Of a stretch of DNA of 45,862 nucleotides, positions 2,073 through 5,260 are shown in pieces. The notes beneath the pieces are model-generated. The model was not told the origin of the DNA and ran no database searches. It saw only the letters and a list, made by a program, of their open reading frames with translations. The stretch is from a virus: IMG/VR virus record IMGVR_UViG_3300031237_000010, positions 1 to 45,862 of that record; one strand, written 5' to 3'. Numbering within the stretch: the stretch's first letter is position 1; every line of letters begins with the position of its first letter. Position numbers and translations under genes: made by a program.

Positions 2073-2437
2073 GCCTGGGCCTTTCGCCTTACCCGGCGTT
2101 CGATGAGGGGCAGCAGCCGGGCGTCGGCCGCCACCAACTCATCGGCCAGGTACCCGGTCCAAGAATTATTGAGGTCGGCCGGTATCAGGTCCGACTCCTC
2201 GTCAGCGGCCAGCTCCCGGTATGCCTCAAAGAGCCCCTTCGTGGTCACCCGTTTCCGCCCAGCAGCAAGCGCACGACGGGACCGCTGCAGCATCCAGCCG
2301 AACACCCGACCACCCTCCTCGGAGCGGCGCCAGACGCGGTAGGCGGCGAGGGAATTCGCCCGGCGGGAGGGGACCGAGGTCTGGGGGCCGCTAGGCAACG
2401 CAAAGAGAGGCATGTCCGAGAAGTCGCCGGGGGTCAC
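2069..2437 (-). CDS. Conserved phage/actinobacterial-type early protein of unknown function
   Basis: About 122 residues. The part from about residue 28 (RANSLAAYRVWRRSEEGGRV ... GRKRVTTKGLFEAYRE) and the later NNSWTGYLADELVAADARLL resemble a common phage protein family in which a helical N-terminus and a phrase like 'gdgFKINNNYsaryaR' are conserved; no activity has been assigned to it as far as I know. The GTG at 2437 forms a GTGA overlap with the stop of the alternative methyltransferase frame (2434). An ATG at 2413 is a second possible start. It is coupled downstream by GTGA to the DUF1376 gene. Confidence 0.6.
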   Translation of the reverse strand: MTPGDFSDMPLFALPSGPQTSVPSRRANSLAAYRVWRRSEEGGRVFGWMLQRSRRALAAGRKRVTTKGLFEAYRELAADEESDLIPADLNNSWTGYLADELVAADARLLPLIERRVRRKAQA

Positions 2438-2664
2438 GCGGCCTCACTCTTTCGGGGCCAAGAGATGCCATGCGAGGCGCACCACTGCTGGAACCTGTCC
2501 GTTGCCAAGGGCCTTGAGTCGGTCCATCCGATCGGCCACCCCATCAGCCACTCGTACACCTCGGGGGTCAGCTTCCCAAACAGCTTTGTCAGCCGCCGGC
2601 ACCCAGGATGCTTCTGCATGGAGGACGCCATCTGATTCGCCTTGGTCGTGGGCGTGGACAGCAG
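2434..2664 (-). other. Alternative open frame overlapping the methyltransferase C-terminus, resembling another methylase C-terminus
   Basis: In the frame one nucleotide downstream of the methyltransferase frame, this DNA reads LLSTPTTKANQMASSMQKHP, then GCRR ... LTPEVYEWLMGWPIGWTD and DRFQQWCASHGISW. These phrases resemble the C-terminal part of a common family of phage cytosine methylases (PTPT, KANQ, MGWPIGWTD). The main frame over the same bases reads DRMDRLKALGNGQVPAVV, the usual motif X. The alternative frame ends at 2434 with a GTGA overlap to the next gene, matching the operon's style. It could be reached by +1 frameshifting, be a fossil, or be a second coding layer. Confidence 0.45.
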
Positions 2665-3082
2665 ACCACAGTCGGCGCCTAAGGTGCGGTGCGCCCACGT
2701 CGGCAGCGGACACCGTGCGCCCCGGCAACCAGGAGTTGACGACGTTCTCTGCAAAGACGAAACTCGGCTGGACCTCGTTCGCGATGCGGACGACCTCGGG
2801 CCAGAGATTCGGCGCGACCAGTCGACCTCGGGCGGCAGAACTAAACGGTTGGCAGGGGAACCCGGCGCTGATGACATCAACGTGTCCCCGCCATGGTCGT
2901 CCGTCGAACGTCGTAACGTCATCCCAGATGGGGAACGGGTCGAGGAATCCGTCTCGCTGTCGGGCGAGGAGAATGGAACGGGCGTAGGGAGCAAGTTCAA
3001 CAGCGCAGACGGTGCGCCATCCCAGGAGGAGCCCTCCCAGAATGCCTCCTCCCCCGCCTGCAAAAAGTGCCAGCTCACGCAT
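2444..3082 (-). CDS. DNA (cytosine-5) methyltransferase, compact form
   Basis: 212 residues. Motif I is ALFAGGGGGILGG (about 5-17); the catalytic motif IV is GFPCQPFSSA with Cys77; motif VI is AENVV (112-115); motif VIII is VGAPHLRRRLW (129-139); motif X is LGNGQVPAV (192-200). It transfers a methyl group from SAM to C5 of cytosine in DNA, probably protecting phage DNA from host restriction. It is short: only about 15 residues separate motif VI from motif VIII and there is little room for a target recognition domain, so specificity is unclear. A GGAG precedes the ATG. No restriction endonuclease partner is seen, so it is an orphan enzyme. Confidence 0.85.
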   Translation of the reverse strand: MRELALFAGGGGGILGGLLLGWRTVCAVELAPYARSILLARQRDGFLDPFPIWDDVTTFDGRPWRGHVDVISAGFPCQPFSSAARGRLVAPNLWPEVVRIANEVQPSFVFAENVVNSWLPGRTVSAADVGAPHLRRRLWSAVHAHDQGESDGVLHAEASWVPAADKAVWEADPRGVRVADGVADRMDRLKALGNGQVPAVVRLAWHLLAPKE

Positions 3083-3905: not shown

Positions 3906-4240
3906 GCCCCAAATCCCTTTTTCTGGACTTCCCGTTCCCAAAGAGTGCGACCGTCGAGCCCGTCCGTCAGGAACTCCAGATAAGCGGGGTGGACATGAGC
4001 TAGGGTGTTCAGTCGCGCTTCAGTGACGGAGGTCTTGTCCAGCGCGAACTTGGCCCGCAGTACTTCGGTGCAGGAACTCAAAACCGCCTTGCGCCAATGG
4101 TCCCACATCCCATAGTTCCCGAACCAGCATGCGAGCTGCGCCGGATCATTCGCGTCCCACGTCGGGGCGCAGAGGACTTCCGGCACCTCCGGGGCGGGCG
4201 GTGGTTGCCAGGATACGGGCAACTCGGACGGATGGGTCAC
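3902..4240 (-). CDS. Hypothetical early protein, helical
   Basis: About 112 residues, GTG start overlapping the upstream stop by GTGA and its own stop coupled the same way downstream. A Pro-rich N-terminus is followed by a helical part (WFGNYGMWDHWRKAVLSSCT). It directly follows the putative recombination protein, so a helper role in recombination or replication is possible, but nothing in the sequence proves it. Confidence 0.5.
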   Translation of the reverse strand: MTHPSELPVSWQPPPAPEVPEVLCAPTWDANDPAQLACWFGNYGMWDHWRKAVLSSCTEVLRAKFALDKTSVTEARLNTLAHVHPAYLEFLTDGLDGRTLWEREVQKKGFGA

Positions 4241-5067
4241 GCTACCGCAGCCGGCTCGTCCTGCTCTTGCCCTTCTTCGTGGCGTGCGATCACCGTCTCA
4301 CAGGCGGCGATGAACGCCTTGAACCGTTCCGGATTGTTGGCCTCGGCCCACTCTTTCATCTTCACGACGTGCTCTGCCGAGCACTCGCTGAGCGGCTTAC
4401 CCTTGTCCTTCCCGAAGGGAATGACCATGGCGTTCTCTTTCGCTGCCGGCGGGGATGCAGCGACCGGAGTCTCGGCATCGCGCGGCAGGTCCTCCACGTC
4501 CTGGGTAAAGCGATCCGAAAGCCCGAACGCGTTGAGGGTCGCAGCCACTAGCGCCCGCTTCTGCGCCATCTTGGCCACAGTGTTCTCACATTCCCGGGGC
4601 CGGTCAACGTACTTGGACTCCATCGTGGAGCAGGCGCCGATGCCGACACCGAGGATGGCCCCGTTCCCCCGGGACACGATCTGGCAGCGCACGACGTAGC
4701 GGTACAGGCCGGCAGACTCTCCGGTTTCCTGTTGCCAGGTGAACTCACGATCCCCGCGGTGCGCGTTGCGCCACACCTTCTTGCGCTTGGACCAGGTGAC
4801 CGGCCGGTCGTGGTCGATCTCCTGGGAAATGACCTCGTAGTCCGGGTAGGACCCGAAGGCGATACACAGCCGCTCGGCACCGGGCTTCAGCAGAGTGGGC
4901 TTGTCGCCCGTTCCGGGGATCACCCCGAAGTCTTTCCCTTTTTCCAGCGCCTTCTCGATCAGCTCGGACACCGCTTTGTGCGCTTCGATCAGCGCGGCGG
5001 GGGTAGCCACCGGGCGGACGAGGGCCGTAACTCCGGGCCCGTCAACCGTCGACAACTCGGTACTCAT
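4237..5067 (-). CDS. Phage recombination-region protein (KPTLLKPGAE family) with ExoX-C-like tail
   Basis: 276 residues. AAAGGAG lies 9 bases before the ATG at 5067, so the 34-residue upstream extension is left out. Residues about 48-68 carry GVIPGTGDKPTLLKPGAERL and about 143-152 GVGIGACSTM followed by ESKY, the signature of a widespread phage family found in early operons, often in the place of an annealing protein. Residues about 215-260 (IPFGKDKGKPLSECSAEHVV) resemble the small DNA-binding module found at the end of exonuclease X and DUF3820 proteins. I infer a role in single-strand annealing or processing of DNA ends; the family's activity is not certain to me. Confidence 0.6.
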   Translation of the reverse strand: MSTELSTVDGPGVTALVRPVATPAALIEAHKAVSELIEKALEKGKDFGVIPGTGDKPTLLKPGAERLCIAFGSYPDYEVISQEIDHDRPVTWSKRKKVWRNAHRGDREFTWQQETGESAGLYRYVVRCQIVSRGNGAILGVGIGACSTMESKYVDRPRECENTVAKMAQKRALVAATLNAFGLSDRFTQDVEDLPRDAETPVAASPPAAKENAMVIPFGKDKGKPLSECSAEHVVKMKEWAEANNPERFKAFIAACETVIARHEEGQEQDEPAAVA

Positions 5068-5080
5068 TGTGTAGGCTCCT

Positions 5081-5260
5081 TTATCGGTAGAGCTTCTTCC
5101 AGCGGGTTTCCCGGAGGTCCCGGCTGATCTGACGCCACTTCTTCCCCAACCGCAGATCCAGGAACCCACCCACGAGGCCGACCACCGTCAGGAATCCGAC
5201 GAGGTAGACCGCGACGTCGAAGGTGTCGAGCATCCCGCGGGCAACCTCGGCCGGCGTCAC
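5081..5260 (-). CDS. Small single-pass membrane protein
   Basis: 59 residues from the GTG at 5260, which overlaps the upstream TGA. Residues about 14-36 (VAVYLVGFLTVVGLVGGFLD) form one membrane helix, followed by a strongly basic tail (KKWRQISRDLRETRWKKLYR), giving an N-out/C-in prediction. Function unknown; it is one of three consecutive small membrane proteins in this early operon. Confidence 0.55.
   Translation of the reverse strand: MTPAEVARGMLDTFDVAVYLVGFLTVVGLVGGFLDLRLGKKWRQISRDLRETRWKKLYR

Follow-up and report, generated by a model that had tools for sequence, protein, structure and literature searches.

The cytosine methyltransferase gene of the window (the entire 45,862-nucleotide stretch analyzed, IMG/VR virus record IMGVR_UViG_3300031237_000010) probably encodes, by dual coding, both subunits of a C5-cytosine DNA methyltransferase, with the catalytic part in frame 0 and the subunit carrying the TRD and motif IX in the +1 frame. 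Analysis of the locus and its relatives revealed two selected frames, a conserved second start, a switch of constraint at the TRD region, the gain and swapping of modules, and natural fused and re-split versions of the gene.

We infer that both frames are translated and that their products physically associate. Ribosomes at one Shine–Dalgarno site would start either at the ATG of frame 0, producing the catalytic subunit with motifs I–VIII and X, or at the GTG/ATG located 4 nt downstream in the +1 frame, producing a probably disordered leader of ~140 residues followed by ~75 residues with the TRD and the motif-IX-like segment. The presence of this leader would be forced by the overlap with the core. 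Both subunits would assemble into a holoenzyme methylating phage DNA, most likely evading host restriction; DNA recognition would belong to the +1 product, the TRD modules of which would set the target and be swapped between phages.

Organization of the locus and its relatives

The locus is represented by the following features.

2444..3082, minus strand: frame 0 ORF, C5-cytosine methyltransferase catalytic subunit (212 aa; motifs I–VIII and X; PF00145, phrog_363)
2434..3078, minus strand: +1-frame ORF (214 aa, GTG start), putative separately initiated partner, TRD and motif-IX-like part at the C-terminal end
3076..3082, minus strand: staggered starts ATGCGTG, ATG (frame 0) and GTG (+1), 4 nt apart, downstream of GGAG (from the sequence)
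2660..3067, minus strand: core with motifs I–VIII, constrained in frame 0; the +1 reading is kept free of stops, shows no clear conservation and is predicted to be disordered
2849..2863, minus strand: motif IV GFPCQ with the catalytic Cys, frame 0 (from the sequence; invariant in relatives)
2575..2658, minus strand: TRD region, +1 frame STPTTKANQMASSMQKHPGCRRLTKLFG; frame 0 is here like unconstrained sequence
2518..2574, minus strand: motif-IX-like segment, +1 frame KLTPEVYEWLMGWPIGWTD (comparison with Dcm and HhaI; profile comparison)
2480..2518, minus strand: motif X in frame 0, LKALGNGQVPAVV; the +1 reading of the same bases is SRPLATDRFQQW (from the sequence; both frames conserved in relatives)
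2434..2437, minus strand: GTGA, stop of the +1 ORF overlapping the next ORF (2069-2437)

The frame 0 protein of 212 aa begins with MRELALFAG and matches Pfam PF00145 (E 2e-16, residues 2-115), phrog_363 (E 2.9e-41) and, in phmmer, M.HhaI and M.HaeIII. Motifs I, IV (PCQ), VI (ENV) and VIII follow in order, and motif X of the GNxxxP type, within LKALGNGQVPAVV, is located on the same polypeptide as the core. The +1 protein of 214 aa begins with VSWHFLQ and contains TKANQMASSMQKHP, LTPEVYEWLMGWPIGWTD and DRFQQW; its stop codon, TGA at 2436-2434, shares bases with the GTG start (2437) of the following ORF, and the frame 0 stop lies 10 bases earlier. The preliminary description had placed a second coding layer at the C-terminus of the methylase. 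This layer is real, and the motif X, the three +1 peptides and the GTGA overlap were all found as described, but the limits given for it were too narrow, since the +1 ORF (2434-3078) spans the whole methylase.

Five relatives have 14 codons (42 nt) that are missing from the window methylase (2686-2749, between ENV and motif VIII). The loss is in frame for both ORFs and affects the conserved stretch preceding motif VIII. This copy of the methylase may be impaired or misassembled, and its own activity is therefore uncertain. The neighboring minus-strand ORFs 1275-2072 and 4237-5169 match phrog_9327 (primosomal-protein family) and phrog_10048 (function unknown), respectively, and the methylase may belong to a replication-type gene cluster.

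Searches by tblastn with the C-terminal +1 peptide or with the frame 0 protein led to the same DNA in phages of Pseudomonas, Klebsiella, Acinetobacter, Salmonella, Stenotrophomonas and Microcystis. The +1 peptide has homologues with 55–67% identity in phages of Pseudomonas, Acinetobacter and Salmonella, and the same DNA gives methylase matches of 40–47% identity in frame 0; this similarity, like the rarity of +1 stops described below, exceeds chance. At the shared loci, identity is often greater in the +1 frame than in frame 0. Nearly all of the 80 IMG/VR loci found by the frame 0 protein and the 80 found by the +1 protein contain both frames. The +1 ORF of relatives starts with MSW(L/H) 4 nt past the methylase start and ends about ten codons or less from its stop. 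The TRD part in the +1 frame is also present in distant Dcm-like enzymes of Mycobacterium, Lacticaseibacillus, Synechococcus and gut phages; in these the +1 frame is closed through the core, and so the +1 start must be internal. A search of plasmids for relatives gave just one remote match. As judged from these sequences, clearly more than a hundred diverse phage loci share the dual-frame arrangement.

Constraint and modules of the TRD region

Frame-wise identity was determined by ungapped comparison of equal-length regions between relatives; alignment row set A6 was left out because it contained a wrong-frame row. Over the core with motifs I–VIII, identity is 0.724 in frame 0, 0.409 in +1 and 0.392 in +2. 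Over the TRD region it is 0.69 in +1, 0.41 in frame 0 and 0.40 in +2, with the +1 frame above frame 0 in all 285 pairs; since pairs of relatives are not independent, the counts were also made by module cluster after removal of duplicates, and 13 of the 13 clusters agree. In the motif X region, the values are 0.61 for frame 0, 0.56 for +1 and 0.45 for +2. Accordingly, the core is constrained in frame 0, the TRD in +1, and both frames matter at the end of the gene. The layout of single-chain C5-methyltransferases, with the TRD and motif IX on the same chain as the core, was not observed, since frame 0 is conserved in this region to no greater degree than +2. The +1 frame very probably encodes the DNA-recognition part of the methylase.

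In the +1 frame, the segment LNPxWVEWLMGWPxGWTD (KLTPEVYEWLMGWPIGWTD in the window) resembles canonical motif IX, namely RLTPRECARLMGF of Dcm and KLHPRECARVMGYP of HhaI. In comparison with a motif-IX profile, the +1 frame scored 13.8 and the other frames 1.7 and 1.8; column shuffles scored equally high in 2 of 200 cases. The match is short and of only moderate significance. With an HMM built only of Dcm relatives, motif IX was best in the +1 frame for 131 of the 188 loci, with scores mostly inside the shuffled range. The evidence for motif IX in the +1 frame is suggestive only.

The TRD region of the +1 frame is built of units starting with W/L-P-T-P (WPTPT...), the number and type of which vary. 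The genes of loci L236 and L240, with 96% identity over the core and 98% near motif X, differ by one whole inserted unit, LWPTPTVNGNYNAKGASKKSGDGLATAVKRQS; between L209 and L233, a whole +1 module is inserted between genes otherwise 95–100% identical. In L174 and L006, which share 55% identity, the core and motif X are followed by a +1-type domain in one chain. This fused domain, HTPTTMANY...SMMKH...EWLMGFPIG or similar, is the same module as in the window +1 protein, and the overlapping +1 frame is closed in both fusion genes. Further fusion-type relatives were sought in IMG/VR, and none was found except L174 itself. Frame 0 of L156 terminates behind motif VIII, and its +1 ORF runs on through the TRD, motif IX and motif X, although this is a single metagenomic contig and an assembly error is possible. 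The preliminary description had also suggested, as an alternative, that a frame change gave rise to one family from the other; as history this is possible, and the part with the TRD and motif IX may at one time have shared the frame of the core.

Among other rearranged relatives, the methylase of Mycobacterium phage Llama (L095:1314-2073) is split into gp74 and gp75 by a frame-swapping indel in the middle of the gene, and the same two-piece match was found in several related phages.

The +1 product could alternatively be a regulatory or antirestriction protein in its own right, encoded in overlap with the methylase but not serving as its TRD subunit. We consider this reading unlikely in view of the position and behavior of the +1 part. 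The constrained +1 part lies exactly at the position of the TRD in C5-methyltransferases, where frame 0 has none, its modules behave like TRDs, and its domain is fused to a methylase in L006 and L174. In favor of a separate protein, the +1 product has no fold match in the PDB. AlphaFold2 modelled residues 1-140 of the window +1 protein mostly at a pLDDT of 41–54; only the C-terminal ~65–75 residues (~150-214) are folded, being helical with a pLDDT of about 75–86, which is in keeping with the two-subunit reading. Comparison of this model with PDB structures gave nothing below E 6. The profile of the +1 proteins had no match among PDB sequences at E 10, and the +1 proteins had none in Pfam and NCBIfam. 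In the model of the L174 fusion, the core matches M.HhaI with Z 16.1 over 199 residues, and the C-terminal module has a pLDDT of about 70–77. No match to known TRD structures was obtained for the C-terminal domain of L174, the aligned range ending at about residue 236, which is not evidence for a new fold. The missing structural matches of the +1 fold and of this domain, the short motif-IX match and the 14-codon loss in the window copy weigh against the two-subunit reading, whereas the M.HhaI-like core of the fusion supports it.

Start codons and selection on the +1 frame

A start could be identified in 130 loci; in 121 of them, ATG (114) or GTG (7) is present at precisely +4. In the methylase, codon 2 is AAT in 111 loci and AAC in none, though AAC is twice as common as AAT in the same cores; where codon 2 encodes Arg, it is CGT in 7 of the 14 cases, while CGT makes up 7% of Arg codons. 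In the simplest reading of these sequences, the +1 product initiates independently.

This start bears on the suggestion of the preliminary description that two C-termini are made by frameshifting. Ribosomes would then leave frame 0 for +1 downstream of motif VIII, producing a chimeric protein of core, TRD and motif IX, and would perhaps return for motif X. Such programmed frameshifting is consistent with the change of constrained frame exactly at the boundary of the core and the TRD, and also with L169:2473-3273, where the core is read directly into LNPEWVEWLMGWP in one frame and motif X is in another, as a result of either natural rearrangement or an assembly indel. However, a product of frameshifting would need neither the open +1 frame upstream of the junction nor its own conserved start, and almost every locus retrieved with only the +1 protein as query still has an open frame 0 across the TRD region. 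The conserved start and the open frame upstream therefore argue against frameshifting, which is not needed for production of the +1 part and appears improbable.

Stop codons are rare in the +1 frame. In 85 relatives, 15 +1 stops were observed, while 430 were expected when synonymous codons were permuted within each gene and 840 with random codons of the same GC3; in the +2 frame of these genes, 1176 stops were found versus 982 expected. Over the catalytic core of 152 loci of the same class as the window, the +1 frame contains 19 stops versus 403 expected. In 65 bacterial dcm genes, taken as a control, 592 stops were present versus 727 expected, and none of the 65 was stop-free. Across the TRD region, 185 of the 188 loci have an open +1 frame, two of the three exceptions being the fusion genes L006 and L174; the absence of frame 0 stops in this region across these loci follows from the construction of the set. 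The frame is thus kept open in relatives, and the +1 peptide has homologues; neither of the two observations named in the preliminary description as refuting the second layer was therefore made.

Differences between close relatives at codon positions 1, 2 and 3 number 113, 45 and 127, versus 86, 52 and 295 in neighboring genes of the same locus pairs (p 6e-10); such flattening is expected if the third codon position in one frame serves as the second in the other. The idea that the openness and similarity of the +1 frame are a by-product of base composition and methylase conservation, for which it can be said that core identity in +1 (0.41) hardly exceeds that of the +2 control (0.39), is contradicted by the synonymous permutation, the +2 frame, the Dcm control, the start-codon test and the TRD region, and is extremely improbable.

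Known systems, annotation and significance

The small subunit of the methyltransferase M.EcoHK31I is encoded within the gene of the large subunit, in another frame. Multispecific C5-methyltransferases of the Bacillus phages SPR and phi3T contain several exchangeable TRD units per enzyme, in one polypeptide and one frame; here, such units are in the alternative frame. In the E. coli dcm-vsr pair, a C5-methyltransferase gene likewise overlaps another gene, but over 20 nt and with an independent repair enzyme, not with the enzyme's own TRD.

According to the account of split enzymes in PMC3404938, M.EcoHK31I (YGGCCR) consists of two polypeptides, of which the large one contains motifs I–VIII and X together with the predicted TRD, and the small one contains motif IX; in M.AquI (CYCGRG), the second polypeptide comprises part of the TRD, motif IX and motif X. 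Similar to M.EcoHK31I, the phage locus has motifs I–VIII and X in one polypeptide (here frame 0); a short profile match suggests that motif IX may be on the second one. It differs in that the TRD region belongs to the small +1 product, the +1 ORF starts 4 nt past the methylase start and spans the whole gene, the modules are multiple and swappable, and the arrangement is phage-borne and widespread. With M.AquI it would share the location of part of the TRD and motif IX on the second polypeptide, but motif X, which is in the small subunit of M.AquI, is here in frame 0, L156 alone being AquI-like. The phage locus was assigned to neither type because either the TRD (M.EcoHK31I) or motif X (M.AquI) is on the other subunit.

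In the Paenibacillus phages Sitara (gp60, ‘g59 internal gene’) and DevRi (DevRi_57), an ORF is annotated inside the cytosine methylase gene, and the +1 query matches over its end. In these two loci (DevRi and Sitara; L177:1282-1986 and L182:1282-1986), the internal ORF was annotated by hand; it is known from GenBank annotation only, and no analysis of it was found in the open literature searched, nor was a description of this methylase overlap in phages.

Such dual-frame loci of phages are usually annotated as a single gene or mislabelled. Gene callers tend to keep one frame, and thus half of the predicted enzyme is missing from the annotation. In GenBank, only the +1 ORF is annotated in L009:1126-1626 and L011:1442-2170 (in one of them as ‘DNA-cytosine methyltransferase’), and only frame 0 in other phages. 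PHROG keeps two families, both labelled DNA methyltransferase, of which phrog_363 is the frame 0 protein and phrog_1008 the +1 protein. The window +1 protein matches phrog_1008 only around EWLMGWP (E 9.6e-06), while longer +1 relatives match it over much of their length (E 6e-28 to 3e-17). The resemblance of the +1 peptide to another phage methylase family, pointed out in the preliminary description, is explained by this, as that family is the +1-frame protein itself. The families phrog_1008 (329 aa, ‘DNA methyltransferase’), phrog_35493 and phrog_26627 (68–71 aa, ‘unknown function’) match the +1 protein or its C-terminus, so that the two halves of a single gene are kept apart in PHROG as distinct families.

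If the two-subunit reading is correct, it would explain why these phage cytosine methylases seem to have no TRD between motifs VIII and X, as well as the existence of the second ‘methyltransferase’ family phrog_1008 in databases, and predictions of specificity that use only the annotated protein would be incorrect. A more far-reaching proposal, which we advance tentatively and regard as slightly doubtful, is that, in a widespread group of phage methyltransferases, the whole specificity is an array of one to several exchangeable modules in the alternative frame of the catalytic gene, each an independent recognition unit, making the enzyme multispecific in trans. In that case, recombination inside one gene would re-target the enzyme while both frames stay open. 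The two-subunit enzymes would also be a source of natural, swappable split methyltransferases, and the locus would represent a pair of overlapping genes on the same strand, long and widespread among bacterial viruses, in which the division of labor between frames is seen as a switch of constraint.
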